Source of the DNA: a virus
Direction: 5' to 3' (one strand)
DNA: 28,903 nt
Virus record (IMG/VR): IMGVR_UViG_3300017987_000281
Location: 1 to 28,903 of that record
Shown here: positions 1,881 through 28,903 of the stretch, piece by piece
Numbering within the stretch: the first letter of the stretch is position 1
Layout of the letters: the number at the start of each line of letters is the position of its first letter
Notes under the pieces: generated by a model
The model's input: only the letters and a program-made list of their open reading frames with translations
The model's database searches: none
Told to the model about the DNA's origin: nothing
Program-made: the position numbers and the translations under genes

Positions 1881-2264
1881 TCAGAACTTGACCTTGGCCA
1901 GCGCGTCGGCGGCCATCGGGCCGAGGACGGGGATGTCGTCGACGACGTCGGAGACGGCCACCCGCACGGCTTCGGCGGCGGCCTTGGCTGAGGCGAGCTG
2001 ATCTTGGACGGCTTGGACGCCTTGGGTGACCTGAGTGACGGGGTCAGACTTGTCGAAGGTGCCGTCGTGGCGCTGCTTTGAGGTCACCACCGCGGCGGTG
2101 CCGGCCGCGCCCACACCGGCCAGGGACAGCAGGGCGGCGACGGCCGCGGAGATCGACGATGCGGCCTCGGGCGAGACGATCGACCACAACGACAGCAGCG
2201 TCAGCGCCGAGGTGGCGATAGTGCCCAGCGCATACAAACTCTGGCGGATACGGGGAGTCATCAT
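1881..2264 (-). CDS. holin-like membrane protein
   Basis: This 127-residue protein starts MMTPRIRQSLYALG at an ATG overlapping the lysin A stop by four bases. It has two hydrophobic segments, about 11-31 (YALGTIATSALTLLSLWSIV) and 38-60 (SAAVAALLSLAGVGAAGTAAVV), then a polar helix (PVTQVTQGVQAVQDQLASAKAAAEAV) and a weakly hydrophobic end (VSDVVDDIPVLGP). Two membrane segments, small size and position immediately after lysin A make a holin the best call. Holins have little sequence signature, so the call rests on build and context. A longer frame to 2855 lies within lysin A and is not credible. The start codon could also be the second of the two adjacent ATGs. Confidence 0.8.
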   Translation of the reverse strand: MMTPRIRQSLYALGTIATSALTLLSLWSIVSPEAASSISAAVAALLSLAGVGAAGTAAVVTSKQRHDGTFDKSDPVTQVTQGVQAVQDQLASAKAAAEAVRVAVSDVVDDIPVLGPMAADALAKVKF

Positions 2265-3709
2265 GATGCGATGCCCTTCCATTCGCGGTACGACTGCAGC
2301 GCACCGGGGTTGACCTGTTCCAGCCGGACCAGGACGTTCTTGGCGTGGTTGACCGCCCACGCATCGCGGAACTCCCCCTTGCCGGCGGCCACACGCATCA
2401 CTCGGTCGATGTCGTCGAGGCTGCCTTGGATGGCGGCGTCCTCGACGGCTTCGCGGTGGGACATGGCGTCGATCGACTGGATCAGTTGGGCCAGGGTGTA
2501 GCGGGCGCCTTCGCCGGGAGTCTTGTAGATAGAGATGCTGGGGTAGAGGCGGTCGGCCATATCGAGCCCTTCCTCGGTAGGGATGTCGCCCTCGCGGGTG
2601 ATGGCGAGCAGTTGGTCGCCCTGGGCGAGGGCGAGGGCGTACCGGCGGCGGCGGTCCTCGGCGCCGTTCTGCCCGCCGTTGATGCGGTAGGTGACGAGGT
2701 CGAAGTCGCCGCGGTCGCAGAGGGTGTTGATGTCGGGGCGGGCAACAGTCCAGTACCAGGCGGGTCCGATGCCGGCCCAGCGGAGGTCGGCGAGCCGTTT
2801 CGGGTAGCGGACGAAGTAGTTGGCGGCGTCCACCAGATTGTTTTCCCACGCCCATCTACTGAACCCGGCGTAGTTGGCTTCCCAGGTGATCTGTATCCAG
2901 GTGCGGCCTTTGTACCGCCAGCGGTCGGTGGACTCATCCCCGGAGGCGTATTCCTCGGTGGCGTTGAAGCTCGCGGATTCGTGCCCGATCTGGGCGAGCC
3001 AGGTGGCGACACGGTTGACGGTGGTGCAGTTGGAGAGCCGCAAGCCTTGCTGGACGGTGGGCAGGATTTCGGCGGCTTTGGCTTCGGTGATGCCGGTGGC
3101 GGCGGCGAGGACGGTGACCGGGCGGGCCGACGCCACCGGGGGTGGTGTGGTAAAGACAGGTTGCACGTTGGCGTAGCAGTACCCTTTGGGGGGGATGAGG
3201 GTGGCGCACTGGTCGAAGGACACCCAGTAGCCGAAGGGCCGGAACCCGGAGTCGGCGATCCACACCGCCCGATCCCCGGCCGAGTCGTAGCCCATCGCCG
3301 CGACGTAGTGGTACACGGTGCCGCCGCCGTAAGCCGGTGACACACTGCCCTTTACGCCCCTGGGGTAGTTGTTCGGTGGGGCGACCCAATTCATCACCAC
3401 GCCGTAGCCGGCGTCGATGGAGCGAGTCAGGTCGGCCCACAGGCGAGACTTCTGCGCGGCGGTCATCGGGTCGCGTTCGCAGTAGACGCTGGTGTAGCGG
3501 CCGTCGGGCAGTCGGCGGTCCAGCACCCGTTCAATCAAGCCGATGTAGTCGGTGCCGCCGCGGTGAGTGCCCATTTCGGCGGCAAGATCCCGTTCGGCGG
3601 CGTGTTTGCCTTGGGTGTCGAGCACGATCTGGGTGGATGCCGGCCCGCACCACCAGCCCGCCTCCTGCGGCACCAGGGCGCGATTGTAGGGCAGGACTTT
3701 CACGGTCAT
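2261..3709 (-). CDS. lysA: endolysin (lysin A): C39 peptidase and GH19 domains
   Basis: This 482-residue enzyme degrades peptidoglycan at lysis. Residues 1-185 are a C39-family peptidase-like domain with WWCGPAS (C21), YHYVAAMGY (H134) and WIADSG (D153) as the expected catalytic set. Residues about 195-370 are a GH19 chitinase or lysozyme-like domain: LAQIGHESASF with E244 as the likely acid, YKGRTWIQITWEANY (266-280), and VTYRINGGQNGAEDRRRRY (339-357). The C-terminal 100 residues (after EEGLDMADRLYP) are a separate domain, probably for cell-wall binding, that I do not recognise. This domain order is well known from mycobacteriophage lysin A. There is no signal peptide, so a holin is needed. 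The stop overlaps the holin start by four bases. Confidence 0.93.
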   Translation of the reverse strand: MTVKVLPYNRALVPQEAGWWCGPASTQIVLDTQGKHAAERDLAAEMGTHRGGTDYIGLIERVLDRRLPDGRYTSVYCERDPMTAAQKSRLWADLTRSIDAGYGVVMNWVAPPNNYPRGVKGSVSPAYGGGTVYHYVAAMGYDSAGDRAVWIADSGFRPFGYWVSFDQCATLIPPKGYCYANVQPVFTTPPPVASARPVTVLAAATGITEAKAAEILPTVQQGLRLSNCTTVNRVATWLAQIGHESASFNATEEYASGDESTDRWRYKGRTWIQITWEANYAGFSRWAWENNLVDAANYFVRYPKRLADLRWAGIGPAWYWTVARPDINTLCDRGDFDLVTYRINGGQNGAEDRRRRYALALAQGDQLLAITREGDIPTEEGLDMADRLYPSISIYKTPGEGARYTLAQLIQSIDAMSHREAVEDAAIQGSLDDIDRVMRVAAGKGEFRDAWAVNHAKNVLVRLEQVNPGALQSYREWKGIAS

Positions 3710-3881: not shown

Positions 3882-4739
3882 TTAGATGGGGTATCGGATG
3901 ATGACGATGCCGCTGCCGCCGTTGCCGCCGTAGTTTCCTGCCTGATTGCCCAACGCAGCGCCGGCACCGGCGCCGCCGCCGCCGGTGTTAGCGCCTCCTG
4001 CGGCGTTGGTGCGTTGGTCACCGGCTTGAGATGTGGCGACACCGCCGGTATTCAATGCTGAACCCCCGCCGGTTGCTGAAAAGGCAGCGCCGCCGCCGCC
4101 TATACCGCCGTTACCGGGCGTTTTGCTAAATCCGGCATAGCCGCCACCACCGCCCCAGTAATAGGTCGTCCCCAGAATGTCGTCTGCTATTCCTGCGCCG
4201 CCGTGTTGATCAGTGGCTGATGCTCCTGCACCACCACCGCCACCAGTCGTAGCACCGTCGCCGCCGGAACCGTCGCCGCTGCCGCCGGATTGGTTATATC
4301 CACCGCCGCCGCCGGAACCGTTGGAAGCCCGGCCGGCAGCCCCTGGTGCGCCACTGAAGTAGCCGCCGCCGCCGCCGCCGCCTGCGATCAACCCCGCGAA
4401 CGTGCTGTCGGAACCGTTCCCGCCGACATTCTTGCCGTCAGTACCGGAACCACCATCACCAACGGTCACCGTGTACGAATTGGCGGATAATGTCAGCGTT
4501 TGGCGCAGAACGCCGCCACCGCCACCGCCACCGCCGTTGTCACCGGCACCACCGCCGCCGCCGCCGACAAGAAGAACATCAACAGAACCGCCGCCAGAAA
4601 TAACTAGTGTCCCACTGCTGGTAAAAGTGTGGATTCGGTAGCCCCCAGAATAGGTAACCGTTCCACCCGATGCTAAAACGCCGGTGTTACCGATTCGCCG
4701 CGCCGACCACAACCGCTCCGAGTATCTGCGGAACGTCAC
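3882..4739 (-). CDS. glycine-rich adhesin-like tail protein
   Basis: This 285-residue protein starts with GTG at 4739, overlapping the preceding stop. A short beta start (residues 27-60: VTYSGGYRIHTFTSSGTL, then SGGGSVDVLLVGGGG) leads into more than 200 residues dominated by glycine runs broken by short polar or aromatic loops (YNQSGGSGDG, TTYYWGGGGGYAGF). It ends NGGSGIVIIRYPI, the usual ending of this family. The pattern resembles the polyglycine sandwich of phage S16 Gp38-type adhesins, where loops at the tip touch the receptor. The DNA is AT-richer than its neighbours in places: 62 of 120 bases at 4561-4680 are G or C by hand count. A role in host recognition is inferred. Confidence 0.85.
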   Translation of the reverse strand: MTFRRYSERLWSARRIGNTGVLASGGTVTYSGGYRIHTFTSSGTLVISGGGSVDVLLVGGGGGGAGDNGGGGGGGGVLRQTLTLSANSYTVTVGDGGSGTDGKNVGGNGSDSTFAGLIAGGGGGGGYFSGAPGAAGRASNGSGGGGGYNQSGGSGDGSGGDGATTGGGGGAGASATDQHGGAGIADDILGTTYYWGGGGGYAGFSKTPGNGGIGGGGAAFSATGGGSALNTGGVATSQAGDQRTNAAGGANTGGGGAGAGAALGNQAGNYGGNGGSGIVIIRYPI

Positions 4740-5070: not shown

Positions 5071-7485
5071 TCAGGCTCCCATCAGTAGAAATTGATTGAA
5101 CGTCTCGGCGCCGCCGCCGCCGGCCGGTGTGGCCCACTGCCCGTCGCCGCGGAGATAAGTGGTGTCGTCGGCGGTTCCGGTCGCGCCGATCGCCGACACC
5201 GGAATGTCGGACAGCGTGTTCGACGAGCCGGAAATCGTTTTGTTGGTGATGGTTTGGGCGTCGTTGGTTCCGACCGCAGCACCCGTCGGCACGGTCTTGC
5301 CGGCCCAGGAGTCGAGGGTCGGCGACCACGCCTGCACCGACGATCCGACCGCCGCCGTCACCCGAGCATCAGCGCGGCTTTGCGTGTAGTAGAGGTTGGT
5401 GCTGCCTTCGGGAACTGCGTCGGTGCTACCTGGCGAGGGTGATATTTCGACGTAAGAGGAACCGCCCCAACGCCAAATCTTCCCGGTGTCCAGTGCGACG
5501 TAGATCGTGGCCGCGGTGCCGGTGGCCGGGAACGATGCAGCGTCGGCCGCCTCGACCACGTCCTCAACAAAGGACGGCAACTGGTCGGCAGGGACTAGGC
5601 CGGATGCGTCGAGAGCACAGTATCCATTCGGTTGCCCTTTGTTGCCGGTGTACTCCGCTGAGATAACCGACCGCGCCGCAGCAGCATCCACGCCGGCGGC
5701 GATGACCGCAGGCTTGTCGGTGATGCCAGCCCAGGTGGTTGTGCCCGGTTCGCCCTGCGGCCCCGTAGGGCCGACCGCCCCGTCGCTACCGTCAACGCCG
5801 TCGGCGCCGTCGCTGCCGGCCGCCCCCGTGGCCCCCGCCGGCACAGTAAATCGCAGAACAGCGTTGGTCGAGTCGCCAAGGTTATCCACGGCCGCGCTGC
5901 TGCCGGGATCGCCAGTCACCGTCGAGTCAATGGTGACGGTGGCGGCCTGACCAGATGCGCCGGTAGCCCCAACCGGGCCGACGAACGGAACACCGTCAAC
6001 CTCGGCGGGGAACGATGAGCCGTCAAAGACGAACAGCAGTCCCGAGTCGACTGCAACGTAGGCGTCGCCGTCGGTCAGCCCGCTCGTCGGGAGTGAGGCG
6101 TAGTCGGCAACGCTGCCTCGCAGGTTGGCCGCCTGGCCGGCGGCGCCGGTGGCCCCGACGGCGCCGGTGGCCCCGGTGTCGCCGCGGGGCACGGTCACGC
6201 GGATCAGCGCGTCATTCGCGTCGCCGAGGTTTTCGACAGCAGCGGTGCTGCCGGGGTCGCCGGTGACCGTCGAGTCGATAGTGATCGTCGCGGCCGCCCC
6301 CGTGGGGCCGACCGCGCCCGTGGCCCCCGTAGGGCCGATCGGGAGAACTATGTCAAAGACGGCCGCCGAGCTGTCGCCACTGTTCGTGACGGCGGCGGTC
6401 TCACCGCTGGTGACGGTGCCGACCGCGATGGTGGCGGCCTGGCCCACTGCGCCCGTAGCCCCGACCAAGCCCTGAATCCCTTGAATCCCCTGCGGACCCT
6501 GCGGGCCGACGAAAGGGACACCAGCGCCCTCAGCGGGCCAGCTCGTCCCGTCGAAGAAGTACAGCTTTCCGTCGGCTGCCACCACGATCGCGTCGCCAGG
6601 CTCCGGTGACGCCGGAAGATCACCGTAGGTCGCCACGGTGCCGTTAATGTCAAGGGACACACCAGCTTCGCCCTGAACGCCCTGGATTCCCTGGATTCCC
6701 TGCTCTCCCTGGATTCCCTGAGCCCCCGTGGCCCCGGTGGCCCCTGTGGACCCGGTCACCAGACCAAACGAAAATACAGCCGCACCCGAGCTGCCCTCGT
6801 TGACGACAGTCGCGGTCGAACCCGGCGGCAGCGACGTGACCGAGCCGACCGCGATCGTCGCCGCCGCCCCCGTAGCGCCCGTCGCGCCCGTGGCACCGGT
6901 CGGCCCGGACAGCGCAGCCAGCGACACCGTGGGCTGAAGATCCACACCGCCGAACGTAAATGCGATGGTGGTGCCGTCGATCTGACGAACCCCGCCCGGG
7001 GACACCTTCACGATGCCGTTGGCGATCGAGCCGGGGACCGGGGCCACCTCGATCAGGTTGACCTCTACCCCGCCGGTGGTGGGTGCCTCGAAGTCGAACG
7101 GCGCGAGGTAGCCGGGGCGGCCGCCGATGACCACCTCGGAGAAGGTGACCCGGTAGTAGAGCGGGCCGTCGATCTCCAAGAGGCTTGTATTGGCCATGAG
7201 GGTGATCGGGCTGAACGTTCCGGTGCCGCCGTCGTCGGGGTCGACGCGCAGCATCAGCCGGCCGGTCTCCACGTCGATGCGGCCCACCACCGGCACCGGC
7301 ACATAGCCGGTCGGCCGCGGGGTCGCGGTGGTGGCCAGGAGCACGTCGCCGGACTGGAGCAGCGGCGTGAACTGGACGGTGGCGCTGATCGGCCCCAGCT
7401 CCCCCAGGTAATCGCTGTCCAGCGGTGAGTCTGCGATCACCGATTTGTAGTCGGCGGTGACGGTGAAGAATTCAGGCGTCGACAT
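5071..7485 (-). CDS. collagen-like tail fibre protein
   Basis: I start this at the ATG at 7485 (GAGGAG seven bases upstream), giving 804 residues; a longer frame to 7512 adds only nine unlikely residues. Residues 1-190 are a beta-rich base (FTVTADYKSVIADSPLDS ... IDGPLYYRVTFSEVVIGG). Then collagen-like GXY runs at about 194-207, 246-275, 327-348, 384-397, 435-449, 503-512 and 551-582 alternate with four copies of a 34-38-residue module beginning AATI or AATV and with two copies of a 50-residue module around YGDLPASPEPGDAI and YASLPTSGLTDGDA. The end (about 740-804) has ITNKTISGSSNTLSDIP and YLRGDGQWATPAGGG, a common fibre ending. Trimerisation through GXY runs and a role in receptor contact are inferred from the family. 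Confidence 0.9.
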   Translation of the reverse strand: MSTPEFFTVTADYKSVIADSPLDSDYLGELGPISATVQFTPLLQSGDVLLATTATPRPTGYVPVPVVGRIDVETGRLMLRVDPDDGGTGTFSPITLMANTSLLEIDGPLYYRVTFSEVVIGGRPGYLAPFDFEAPTTGGVEVNLIEVAPVPGSIANGIVKVSPGGVRQIDGTTIAFTFGGVDLQPTVSLAALSGPTGATGATGATGAAATIAVGSVTSLPPGSTATVVNEGSSGAAVFSFGLVTGSTGATGATGAQGIQGEQGIQGIQGVQGEAGVSLDINGTVATYGDLPASPEPGDAIVVAADGKLYFFDGTSWPAEGAGVPFVGPQGPQGIQGIQGLVGATGAVGQAATIAVGTVTSGETAAVTNSGDSSAAVFDIVLPIGPTGATGAVGPTGAAATITIDSTVTGDPGSTAAVENLGDANDALIRVTVPRGDTGATGAVGATGAAGQAANLRGSVADYASLPTSGLTDGDAYVAVDSGLLFVFDGSSFPAEVDGVPFVGPVGATGASGQAATVTIDSTVTGDPGSSAAVDNLGDSTNAVLRFTVPAGATGAAGSDGADGVDGSDGAVGPTGPQGEPGTTTWAGITDKPAVIAAGVDAAAARSVISAEYTGNKGQPNGYCALDASGLVPADQLPSFVEDVVEAADAASFPATGTAATIYVALDTGKIWRWGGSSYVEISPSPGSTDAVPEGSTNLYYTQSRADARVTAAVGSSVQAWSPTLDSWAGKTVPTGAAVGTNDAQTITNKTISGSSNTLSDIPVSAIGATGTADDTTYLRGDGQWATPAGGGGAETFNQFLLMGA

Positions 7486-7741
7486 CAGTGGGCTCCTCGC
7501 TGTCGGCCACAACCTCGGCCTGCTCGGCCTTCAGCTCCCGGCGCCGCTCCTCCACCATCTTCTGGGTGTTGTTCTTGCGGGCGCCGGCCAGCAGATCCAA
7601 CAGCCCAGCACTGGCCGCGGCCTTCGGGGCGGCGACCTTGCCGCTCACCGACACATGAGTGGCGCTGTCGGTGAAGCTGAACTCCTCAACCTCGCCGTCG
7701 TGCAGCACGAGGTCGTTGTAGCGGATGGTCAGGCGGGGCAT
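7472..7741 (-). CDS. 89-residue protein upstream of the tail fibre, function unknown
   Basis: This begins MPRLTIRYNDLVLHDGEVEEF at an ATG with TAGGAG four bases upstream, seven bases after the esterase gene. The first half is beta-like (FSFTDSATHVSVSGKVAAP). The second half is a charged helix (LLDLLAGARKNNTQKMVEERRRELKAEQAEVV) with an acidic end. The last 14 bases overlap the fibre gene in another frame. The position between esterase and fibre suggests a structural or assembly role. I do not recognise a family with confidence, and I cannot tell whether it is part of the virion. Confidence 0.7.
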   Translation of the reverse strand: MPRLTIRYNDLVLHDGEVEEFSFTDSATHVSVSGKVAAPKAAASAGLLDLLAGARKNNTQKMVEERRRELKAEQAEVVADSEEPTDVDA

Positions 7742-25411: not shown

Positions 25412-26647
25412 CTAGGCCGGCGGCTCGTCAGCCGGCGCGGCCGGGATGGGCTCGTCGTCACCGTTGGCGGTGACGTTGAGCGGTCGGATGAGGTCGTCCC
25501 CGCCGTCGACCGGCGGGCGGTTGTCCAGGGCGCGGGCCTCGTTGACGGTCATCACCGGCCCGCCCACCGCCTTCGAGATCGCCTCGGCGCGTTCCTCGAA
25601 CGAACCGGTCAGCTTCTCCCGCAGGTTGAACTCGACGTAGAACCGGTCGGCGTCGGGCTCGAAGTCGGGCAGCAGCTGCAGCGCGATCTCCTCGGAGATC
25701 ATCGACAGCCACGGCCCCAGCGTGTCCTGGTACAACATCTTGTGCTGCTCGGTGATGTTGGAGAACGTGGCGTGGTCGAGGATGCCCAGCATCGGCGGCG
25801 GCACGAAATACGCGGCGGCCACTTCCTCGCGGGTCAACTTGCGGGCCTCGATGTACTGCAAATCCTTCGCGGTCTGGCTGACCGGCTTAAAGGTCATGCC
25901 GTCCTCGAGGATCGGGGTGCCGCCCGCGCCCGGCCCCGACCCGGCGTACTGGGCTTGCCAGGCGGTGCGGAACCGCTCCCGGGCCACCTCCGACCACTCC
26001 GGGGCGTCCTTCGGGCGCTCCAGATAGCCCGACATCCGCGCCCCGTTGCGCATCACCTGCTCACGCATCTCGGTGGCGGCGAACTCCTCCCGCAGGGTGC
26101 GGCGCAAAGCCTCCAAAGGGCTGATCCCGGAATCCTTATCGAGGCCATAGCCGCGGAAATACACCATCTGATCGGCCGGAACCACCCGCACACCGGAGTT
26201 GCCGTCGATCTTGAACCCCGCCGGGGTCAACCAGTCATCCCCGTCGATAGTCACGATCTGCGGCGGAATCCGCACCAACCCCACCGACTGATCCCCACCG
26301 AACCGGGTTTTCAACCAGTAGGCGTTGTCGTAGATAGCGAAATCATGTACCAGGGCGTTGATGAACCGGTAGCGGGTCGTCCACGGGTTCGGCCGGCGCA
26401 GCAACCGGGCCAAAGGGTGATCCTGCAGCCGCTGACGGTCAGCATCCCCCACCCGCTCGAACAGATGCAAACCGAGCTGGGCGATGTTGCGGGCCAGGAA
26501 CGTCACCACCGTGCGCACCGACTCCTGGGTGCGCCAGATCGTGGCGTAATCCGCCGAATACGTGGAGGACAGCAGGATTCGGGACGGGGTGGTGATGCGG
26601 TGGCGCGACAGGGCTTCTATCGAGCCGGCGGTGGCGACGAAGGGCAC
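25412..26647 (-). CDS. portal protein (HK97-type)
   Basis: This 411-residue protein forms the dodecameric portal through which DNA enters and leaves the capsid. The HK97-type portal pattern is visible: an early helical region with VRTVVTFLARNIAQL (45-59), a FINALVHDFAIYDNAYWL segment, a DKDSGISPLEALRRTL segment, an RNGARMSGYLE stretch, and a late region with PPPMLGILDHATFSN. The C-terminus is acidic and proline-rich, as is common. The GTG at 26647 is chosen because it follows a GGCGG element and because the protein then begins just before the conserved region. It overlaps the preceding small gene by 31 bases and is followed after 14 bases by the prohead protease, the standard terminase-portal-protease-capsid order. 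Confidence 0.95.
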   Translation of the reverse strand: MPFVATAGSIEALSRHRITTPSRILLSSTYSADYATIWRTQESVRTVVTFLARNIAQLGLHLFERVGDADRQRLQDHPLARLLRRPNPWTTRYRFINALVHDFAIYDNAYWLKTRFGGDQSVGLVRIPPQIVTIDGDDWLTPAGFKIDGNSGVRVVPADQMVYFRGYGLDKDSGISPLEALRRTLREEFAATEMREQVMRNGARMSGYLERPKDAPEWSEVARERFRTAWQAQYAGSGPGAGGTPILEDGMTFKPVSQTAKDLQYIEARKLTREEVAAAYFVPPPMLGILDHATFSNITEQHKMLYQDTLGPWLSMISEEIALQLLPDFEPDADRFYVEFNLREKLTGSFEERAEAISKAVGGPVMTVNEARALDNRPPVDGGDDLIRPLNVTANGDDEPIPAAPADEPPA

Positions 26648-26868
26648 CTAGCACCGCCTCTCAAACGTTGCACGAAGTCAATGTTCGTGCGTTCGATGAG
26701 CACCTCGCCGTCGGCGGGTGCCGGATCAGATCCTGGGGAGTGCACCGTCGCGCCGCGCAGGATCACCGCGCGGCCGTTCTCCCATGCGCACACACCCGAC
26801 ACCGCGTTACCGGAGACCAGGTTGACCACCACCGAGGCGCCGACGATCTTGAGCTGGGAGCTAAACAA
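26617..26868 (-). CDS. small protein between terminase and portal (Sm-like fold suspected)
   Basis: I read an 83-residue protein starting with TTG at 26868, eight bases inside the end of the large terminase gene, with AAAGGA seven bases upstream. The body (GASVVVNLVSGNAVSGVCAW, then a conserved-looking end EVLIERTNIDFVQRL) looks like a small all-beta barrel. I recall short proteins at exactly this place in many actinobacteriophages that end in a similar 'VLIPRxxVxFVQ' pattern. Its function is unknown; the position suggests a role at the packaging or portal stage. The last 31 bases overlap the portal gene, and the tail after FVQRL is simply the read-through of that overlap. The open frame extends upstream to 26937, but that part overlaps the terminase more deeply and has no ribosome binding site I can see. 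Confidence 0.7.
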   Translation of the reverse strand: MFSSQLKIVGASVVVNLVSGNAVSGVCAWENGRAVILRGATVHSPGSDPAPADGEVLIERTNIDFVQRLRGGARCPSSPPPAR

Positions 26869-28414
26869 CGAGCAGTCCTTTGTCCTCGTAGGCTGAGCGG
26901 CGCAGCGGGGCGGCGGTCTCCGTCGCCCACACCGCACCGATGAACGCCTTCAACGGGGCGGCGTCGGTCGGGCTGGACGCCAAGTCGATCACCCACGCAC
27001 CCTGGGAAAGCACCTTCACCGACGCCGAGGTGGCCGCAGCGTCCAAACCCGGGTGGGCCAGATGCCGGATGCGGCGCTTGTCCAGCCGGTCGAACACGAT
27101 CCCGGTCGCCGAGCCCAGATCCGGGCCGGCCCAGGCGATCACCGGCAGGTTCGCCGGCGCGCCCTCGGCGGTGACCGCGTTGGCGATGTCGTCGATCAGG
27201 GAAGTCTCCGGGGCGCCGTTGGACTGAATCACAATCCCTGAATAGCTGTCGCGGTTGTCGATCAGCCACGGGATCACCCAGTCAGTGCCCGCACGGTCGG
27301 CGGCGATACCGGCCACCGGGTTGCCGTCGGCGTCCCGAGCGGCGCGGGCGATGTAACACTTGCCGCGATTCCATGACACGGCCAAACACACGAAGCGGGG
27401 GGTGTCCTGCGCGGGTCTGGCGTCGTTGTCCAAGGTTTCCCGCCACGAACCCTCGGGGAACGGGCCGGACTCGGCCATCGACACCCACCGGCACAACACC
27501 TCGATCTCGAACTGGCTCGGCGGGTTGGTGCGCAACGCCGCCGCGATCGCCCGCTCCGTCACACAGTTCTCGACGATGTCGGTGTGATTCATCGACGGGT
27601 TGGCCTGCGCCCACGCCCCCCGGTCGGTGCGCTTCGCCGACGGGGACGCCGACCACTCGAACCAGCCCAGCACCTGCTCGTCGGCGGTCTGATCCAGATA
27701 CTCCTGCATCTCCTCATCAAGGCCTTCGAGGATCTCGGCGTCGCCGTCACCATCCGGCCAGCCCAGCTCGCGGTGGGCCTGGGCGCGCAAATACCGCAGC
27801 ACCGTCGACAGCGCGTCCCCGGCGTTGGAGAACGCCCACGCCTGCGCCTTCGGGCGGGCGTTCATCGTGTTTGTCACTGCTGACCACGAATCCCACGTCT
27901 GATGCTCGCGCAGCTCATCCAGCAGGATCAGGTCACCGGAGAATCCGCGGCCGCCGCGGCGGGACGCCGCAGCCACCCGGTACTGGCAGCCGGTCACCAG
28001 CCGCATCACCTTGGGATGGCCCAACGACACTTTCTCGATCAGCTCTTCGAGTTCCTCGTCGGACTGCGCCCACTCCACCGCTTCGGCCCACGCTTTCTCG
28101 GCGTTGGCCAGATCCTGGGCGGTGCCGATCACCGTCGGGCTGTCGAGGGCGTAGATGTGCCACAGCGCCAGGATCAGCATCAGCAGGGTCTTGCCATTCT
28201 GCCGGGCCACGTTGACCACCACGAACCGGTAGCGGTAGGCGCCGGTCTCATCCAGCTCCAGGGCGTGGATCAGCAGCCACCGCTGCCACGGGAACAGATT
28301 GACCCCGAGCACATCCTCGGCGAACGCGATCGCCGCAAACCCGTGCGTCGTCTCCGGGGTCAACTCACGCTTCGGCGGGGTAAAGATCCGCGGCTGCTCA
28401 CAGCCAACAATCAC
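26861..28414 (-). CDS. terL: terminase large subunit (packaging ATPase, divergent nuclease)
   Basis: This 517-residue protein is the ATP-driven packaging motor that docks on the portal. The ATPase is clear: an adenine-binding region around FPWQRWLL (41-48), a Walker A-type loop ARQNGKT (70-76), a Walker B stretch DLILLDE (161-167) with E167 as the catalytic acid, and a coupling motif near AFSNAGD (194-200). The C-terminal half (about 335-505) follows the RNase H-like nuclease layout. However, where relatives as I recall them read LDVSxDR and VVIDxxxP, this protein reads LAVSWNR (A345) and IVIQSNG (Q397); only the last acidic position (TDAAPLKA, D484) looks kept. The start is GTG at 28414, overlapping the small subunit stop. 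Identity as a terminase is very secure; the nuclease reading is an alignment by eye. Confidence 0.95.
   Translation of the reverse strand: MIVGCEQPRIFTPPKRELTPETTHGFAAIAFAEDVLGVNLFPWQRWLLIHALELDETGAYRYRFVVVNVARQNGKTLLMLILALWHIYALDSPTVIGTAQDLANAEKAWAEAVEWAQSDEELEELIEKVSLGHPKVMRLVTGCQYRVAAASRRGGRGFSGDLILLDELREHQTWDSWSAVTNTMNARPKAQAWAFSNAGDALSTVLRYLRAQAHRELGWPDGDGDAEILEGLDEEMQEYLDQTADEQVLGWFEWSASPSAKRTDRGAWAQANPSMNHTDIVENCVTERAIAAALRTNPPSQFEIEVLCRWVSMAESGPFPEGSWRETLDNDARPAQDTPRFVCLAVSWNRGKCYIARAARDADGNPVAGIAADRAGTDWVIPWLIDNRDSYSGIVIQSNGAPETSLIDDIANAVTAEGAPANLPVIAWAGPDLGSATGIVFDRLDKRRIRHLAHPGLDAAATSASVKVLSQGAWVIDLASSPTDAAPLKAFIGAVWATETAAPLRRSAYEDKGLLVV
26876..26881 (-). promoter_or_regulatory. 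ribosome binding site deciding a TTG start
   Basis: On the minus strand this reads AAAGGA, inside the last codons of the large terminase gene and seven bases before the TTG at 26868. It is the main reason for starting the next small gene at TTG rather than at the upstream end of the open frame. Confidence 0.55.
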
Positions 28415-28845
28415 CCGGTCGCCTTCGCAGACGAAGTCATCGACCGCACCGAGGCCAGCTTCGACCGGCGGGCATCCGCGCCACGCCGCAGCTTGTCCAA
28501 CGTCTCCGACAGCCGATGCGCGGCACTGGGGTGCTGGGCGATCGCCAACGGCGAATCCAACACCCGCGCCAACGCGATGGCCACCTCGACCAAACCCTGC
28601 CGGGTCGCGGCCGTCGATAATCCGCCAATTTCAGCCAAGACGCCGGCCTCGACCCGGCCCGGCTCATGCTCGGCCGGCGCCGACGCAGTCGGCAGCGCAG
28701 TGACCGTCGCCCGAGACGGTTTGGTGTGCTTGGCGGCCAGCATCTTCTGCCGGCGCGCCTTGTCGTAGTCGCGGCTGGCCTGCTTGCACTCATCGCAGCG
28801 GCAGCCGGTGTTGTAGCGGGTGCGGGTGCCGTGTTGGGACGCCAT
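28411..28845 (-). CDS. terS: terminase small subunit
   Basis: This 144-residue protein is the likely DNA-recognition subunit of the packaging motor; it binds the packaging site and recruits the large subunit. The N-terminus has a compact motif, H5-G-T-R followed by C15, C17 and C20, which could bind zinc and which I recall from many actinobacteriophage small terminases. A polar linker follows (about 25-65), then a helical region (about 66-130) with LSTAATRQGLVEVAIALARVL and a basic tail. The ATG has a GGAGGAGG ribosome binding site. The stop overlaps the GTG of the large terminase by four bases (GTGA), so the two are translationally coupled. Position directly before the large subunit supports the call; the sequence itself is only loosely conserved in this class. 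Confidence 0.8.
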   Translation of the reverse strand: MASQHGTRTRYNTGCRCDECKQASRDYDKARRQKMLAAKHTKPSRATVTALPTASAPAEHEPGRVEAGVLAEIGGLSTAATRQGLVEVAIALARVLDSPLAIAQHPSAAHRLSETLDKLRRGADARRSKLASVRSMTSSAKATG

Positions 28846-28903
28846 CAGCGGCCCTCCTCCGGTCCTAACTGTGGAAATCGAGTGATGTTTGCCAAAGTTC
28901 CCA
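28845..28903 (-). CDS. possible 3' end of a gene upstream of terminase (partial)
   Basis: One minus-strand frame is open from the window edge to a TGA at 28847-28845, which overlaps the terminase small subunit ATG as TGATG. That is the junction style used repeatedly in this operon. Only about 18 codons are visible (ending GPEEGR), so no function can be given. The stretch also holds the small terminase ribosome binding site. Other frames are open or end nearby too, so the call rests mainly on the junction pattern. Confidence 0.3.
   Translation of the reverse strand, partial: GTLANITRFPQLGPEEGR
28853..28860 (-). promoter_or_regulatory. strong ribosome binding site of terminase small subunit
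   Basis: On the minus strand this reads GGAGGAGG, seven bases before the ATG at 28845. It fixes that start and is among the strongest Shine-Dalgarno matches in the window. Confidence 0.75.

Follow-up and report, generated by a model that had tools for sequence, protein, structure and literature searches.

The closest described systems include the cos packaging machinery of phage HK97, which leaves 3' overhangs and in which the large terminase subunit (TerL) has the catalytic acids D302, D388 and D471 (PMC9410871). The HNH protein gp74, encoded at a like position in the HK97 genome, promotes cos cleavage in vitro (PMC9410871). HK97 TerL and its HNH protein both have intact sites, and the identity of the cos cutter in phages with an HNH gene by the terminase is apparently unsettled. 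The TerL of G20c cannot dispense with any of its three acids (PMC5389553). The packaging ATPase of phi29 has an RNase H-like domain whose metal ligands have been lost and which is kept for other roles (PMC7672431); phi29 packages unit-length, protein-capped genomes with no cut. Nearer in sequence are Mycobacterium phage phiT45-1, for which 10-base 3' extensions are published (PMC7953293), and M. abscessus prophages such as prophiGD05-2.

The stretch of DNA analysed here (28,903 nucleotides; the window) is a partial virus record that encodes an intact TerL of 517 amino acids with a GTG start (Table 1). The gene runs on the minus strand, which the first-pass annotation had left unstated. The whole protein is covered by a family profile (phrog_9, residues 1–505, E 9.4e-68); the open reading frame has no Pfam match at 0.01, and 617 phage records hold a match to it. 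The ATPase domain has its Walker A motif and Walker B glutamate, which, together with D484, are found in the translation as the first-pass annotation had stated. The genes for the portal, prohead protease and capsid come after TerL, and the small gene upstream occupies the place of a small subunit, in the same gene order as in prophiGD05-2 and phiT45-1. TerL is 68–69% identical to its counterparts in these elements, which also share the position of cos and the Gln at the second catalytic site. The window TerL belongs to a cos-packaging actinobacteriophage related to phiT45-1 and is a genuine terminase of a known kind with a degenerate nuclease site. Its place among terminases is given by homology and the ATPase domain; what fails, as read from the sequence, is the claim of an active canonical nuclease. 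A small open reading frame between TerL and the portal gene (26617–26937, minus strand) resembles by eye gp3 of phiT45-1 and gp3 of Gordonia phage Santhid, the latter annotated as an RNA binding protein.

Table 1. Positions in the window of the terminase gene, its sites and the adjoining genome end.
Feature	Position	Strand	Basis
Terminase large subunit gene	26861..28414	-	phrog_9 match; model (pLDDT 88.6) matching HK97 TerL, Z 28.1
Walker A ARQNGKT, residues 70-76	28187..28207	-	Translation; kept in homologues
Walker B glutamate E167	27914..27916	-	Invariant in alignment A3
RNase H-like nuclease domain, residues 335-505 (predicted)	26900..27412	-	Strand and helix order in the model; terminase nuclease matches, Z 12-15; dN/dS
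A345, place of first catalytic acid (HK97 D302)	27380..27382	-	Non-acidic across the window clade
Q397, place of second catalytic acid (HK97 D388)	27224..27226	-	Gln across the family
E403, Glu in two clades only, both without the first acid	27206..27208	-	Homologue alignment, tree
D484, probable third metal ligand, retained	26963..26965	-	Asp or Glu in 110/115; off D471 by two residues
Small gene upstream of TerL, small-subunit place	28411..28845	-	phrog_37967 (unknown function), 1.3e-34
Left genome end at cos, TGGGAACTTTGGCAAAC, with conserved TTTNGCAAAC block	28887..28903	-	Contig ends; read-through contig L003; phiT45-1 ends

The structure of the window TerL was predicted with AlphaFold2 from 79 sequences, yielding a model with a mean pLDDT of 88.6 that matches HK97 TerL (PDB code 6z6d) with a Z score of 28.1 and has the same two-domain fold. 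A first prediction from 16 close homologues had reached a mean pLDDT of only 50 and was set aside. The nuclease domain alone matches the nucleases of E217, Sf6, G20c, P22, RB49 and SPP1 with Z scores of 12–15, and is thus predicted to keep the RNase H-like terminase fold. The median pairwise dN/dS within the window clade is about 0.15 for the nuclease domain and 0.11 for the ATPase, rough values because dS is near 1; this purifying regime indicates that the nuclease domain is maintained.

The catalytic site of this domain is degenerate. The first-pass annotation had drawn attention to LAVSWNR and IVIQSNG at places where related terminases hold metal-binding aspartates; these motifs span residues 344–350 and 394–400, and its proposal that two of the three nuclease acids are gone is borne out by A345 and Q397 at the canonical ligand positions. 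When a profile of 23 homologues was aligned to HK97 TerL (1.6e-27), A345, which lies in the first nuclease strand of the model, fell on D302, and the profile-profile alignment gave the same match. Q397 closes the fourth nuclease strand, where D388 would be expected; this correspondence is drawn from the strand end and is not given by the sequence alignments alone. D484 lies two residues before the last helix, and its correspondence to D471 is approximate, as hhalign places it two residues ahead of the D471 column. In the model, the three residues thus sit at the three metal-holding places of terminase nucleases. Whereas HK97 TerL has all three acids, the window TerL has one probable equivalent, and because G20c needs each of its three (PMC5389553), the canonical two-metal site is absent from the window TerL. 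No active close homologue with the same residues was found, the close relatives keeping an acid at the first site, and the lineages that lack the first one share no conserved acid that could replace it. In having a nuclease-like domain devoid of the first two catalytic acids, with D484 probably retained, the window TerL resembles the phi29 ATPase. It is not of that kind, for the window virus, with its cos ends, needs a cut. A search of open-licence papers turned up none that describes a cos phage whose TerL nuclease site is degenerate.

The two losses differ in history, as judged from an alignment of 115 homologue rows in which some contigs are counted twice. The second site is Gln in 104 rows, and a real Asp occurs only in three distant proteins (L106, L111 and L112; VVIDPRSEA). 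The motif VVIDxxxP that the first-pass annotation gave for this place therefore belongs to more distant relatives, and its Asp position is mostly Gln in the family of the window TerL itself. Q397 is accordingly not peculiar to the window virus and is normal in the family, including cultured, plaque-forming phages; it is an old state, found family-wide. By contrast, the first site is Asp or Glu in 81 rows, and A345 is specific to the window clade. All 17 distinct proteins of this clade, about 80–100% identical, have Ala or Ser there, whereas phiT45-1 and prophiGD05-2 keep Asp (VDVSWSR). The agreement of 17 distinct proteins, encoded with varied synonymous codons, shows that A345 is neither chance nor a sequencing error. 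The clade departs from the usual family residues also at G369 (usually Glu) and N349 (usually Asp), while D442, H451, D477 and D484 stay conserved in it as elsewhere.

Outside the window clade, the first site is non-acidic in L104, L105, L108 and L110 (Thr), L086, L090 and L095 (Ala), L067 (Gly), L103 (His) and StAB (Asn). On a quick tree with some long branches, the loss maps to no fewer than five branches within the family, an approximate count. The plaque-forming Corynebacterium phages of the genus Samwavirus (StAB, SamW, Dina) resemble the window virus in having no acid at either the first or the second site (Asn and Pro). Their TerL is only about 29% identical to that of the window, and the loss is independent on the tree. 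StAB stands within 14 records of near-identical cultured phages from which the first acid is gone; IME1320_01, its closest relative beyond them, keeps it. Two other cultured phages, Kuleana (L022) and phi673 (L029), have lost the third acid (Gly or Pro/Ala at the position of D484) and keep the first.

The genome ends of the window lineage were located from metagenome contigs. Window-clade contigs from several metagenomes start near one conserved TTTNGCAAAC block, and 18 of 80 homologous contigs end 250–600 nt upstream of TerL, against an expectation of 1.9 given the density at greater distances. Contig L003 reads through cos. The window is 100% identical to it from the second base of the window (L003:2513), placing its start at L003:2512–2513, and L117, another contig from the same virus, matches L003 at 100% identity over 2501 nt before stopping at L003:2501. 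The ends of the window and L117, both metagenome contigs and not virion DNA, therefore stand 11 nt apart across L003. The gap stretch, TGCCGGCGGTA, fits the loss of a single-stranded 3' overhang stripped during library preparation, with the polarity deduced and not read. At the homologous place the phiT45-1 record ends in CCGCGGTAA and begins with GGCTCCC, and the two are contiguous in prophage L018. The pile-up of contig ends, the match to phiT45-1 and the 11-nt gap together indicate that cos is cut in the window lineage. As far as metagenome contigs define them, the window virus has precise genome ends at cos, produced by a staggered, site-specific cut and consistent with a short 3' overhang whose strand polarity is deduced.

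L004 carries at positions 1–23 a 23-nt fold-back, an artefact of the contig end at cos whose sequence is the cos junction in reverse complement, and positions 1–1656 of L009 are unlike its relatives, have a bacterial look and are probably chimeric. The genome_contigs scan returned one relative, L017 (CAJBHN010000871.1), a contig of a Myxococcales MAG with an 86% identical TerL of the window clade, probably a binning error.

The window as a whole has no HNH gene of the cos-adjacent family, as expected from its stopping at cos. Across cos, a same-strand HNH gene is present in all window-clade contigs that extend upstream by 1 kb or more of non-chimeric sequence (L003, L006, L007, L010, L014 and L045), and also in L086, L090, L095, L103, L104, L108 and L110 from other lineages that lack the first acid. 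Two such genes are found in L003, a contig that matches the window at 100% identity over 4138 nt; the second HNH protein is encoded closer to cos and has further cysteine pairs. The proteins of L003, L007 and L045 pass the Pfam HNH cut-off; that of L104 matches phrog_338 and not Pfam HNH, and that of L014 matches only a custom profile built in this analysis. In an alignment of five clade members and a prophage copy (A4), the catalytic motif does not vary: the cysteine pairs, the DH, an Asn and a His are invariant. HNH genes likewise adjoin cos at the right end of phiT45-1 and prophiGD05-2, and the annotated gene nearest the right end encodes an HNH protein in phiT45-1, StAB and the other Samwavirus phages, Arthrobacter phage Popper and HK97. 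The gene also adjoins cos where relatives retain the first acid, and its presence alone therefore does not prove that it has replaced the terminase nuclease. A link between loss of the first acid and a second HNH copy was considered and dropped: the second hits belonged to another HNH subfamily reached by profile drift, and phiT45-1 keeps the acid yet has two annotated HNH genes.

Given the lost acids, the precise ends, the HNH gene by cos and the activity of HK97 gp74, the simplest account is that the HNH protein makes the cut and that the TerL nuclease domain is vestigial or accessory, as in phi29, though in a phage that needs a cut. TerL, with intact ATPase motifs and a domain predicted to keep the RNase H-like fold but without the canonical two-metal site (the second ligand Gln family-wide, the first lost in the window clade), would bring the DNA. 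The degenerate domain may serve in DNA gripping, docking or regulation, and the most likely cutter is the HNH endonuclease whose gene adjoins cos at the opposite end of the genome in the virion. The first-pass annotation had offered three options, an inactive nuclease, the use of other residues or cutting by another protein; the genome ends and gene neighbourhood point to the last, in the form of the HNH protein, while a non-canonical TerL site retains some plausibility. We hold it somewhat probable that the TerL nuclease is vestigial or accessory and that the HNH protein beside cos makes the cut. The chances appear even that this is a cos phage lineage in which the terminase nuclease has been retired in favour of HNH cutting, and that such a retirement took place about five separate times within a single actinobacteriophage TerL family.

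The strongest competitor to cutting by the HNH protein is a TerL that cuts cos with a rearranged site, built from D484 with D477, D442, H451, Q397 or the clade-specific E403. Conservation of D442, H451, D477, D484 and Q397 is more uniform than that of the first acid, within the window clade too, and E403, which is Val in phiT45-1 and prophiGD05-2, is confined to two lineages, neither of which has the first acid. E403 may conceivably compensate in these two lineages; the residue is absent from three other lineages that lost the acid (L067; L086, L090, L095 and L103; StAB). In canonical terminase nucleases, moreover, the first acid is in contact with metal A and, while catalysis proceeds, also with metal B, and its change to Asn removes most activity in G20c (PMC5389553). 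We therefore judge a rearranged TerL site unlikely, at perhaps one chance among several.

Less probable still is a division of labour in which the HNH protein nicks one strand and a weak or one-metal TerL cuts the other, or in which TerL needs the HNH protein for activation. The cos cleavage promoted by HK97 gp74 takes place in a mixture where TerL is present as well (PMC9410871), and an HNH gene by cos is common both with and without the first acid in TerL; both points agree with such sharing. The half-reaction of a TerL with A345 and Q397 would, however, need ligands not identified in the window protein. A different phage or host nuclease, or a resolvase, might instead cut the concatemer: the window is incomplete, phiT45-1 has further predicted HNH proteins (57, 59 and 60; PMC7953293) and Popper encodes a Holliday junction resolvase. 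Near TerL, only the cos-adjacent HNH gene is consistently found in these lineages, and we consider this source of the cut very improbable. Neutral decay in a defective virus would account for two non-acidic catalytic positions but is largely refuted, and barely credible, in view of the intact reading frame in 17 distinct proteins, the dN/dS of 0.11–0.15, the precise genome ends and the same kind of loss in cultured phages.

The window lineage constitutes a natural mutant that separates the roles of TerL and the HNH protein, with the TerL site broken and the ends precise. Cultured relatives among the Samwavirus, phiT45-1-like, Gordonia and Arthrobacter phages make the question testable. The case is a caution, too, against annotating TerL proteins as nucleases without exception.

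Four other genes of the window, all on the minus strand, could be characterized. A DNA polymerase exonuclease subunit-like protein is encoded at 504–1325 (phrog_403, 2.1e-69) and an endolysin with a C39-like peptidase part at 2261–3709 (phrog_1519; PF13529). Two probable tail or fibre proteins follow, one very rich in glycine (3882–4739) and one large, with collagen-like G-x-x repeats (5071–7512).
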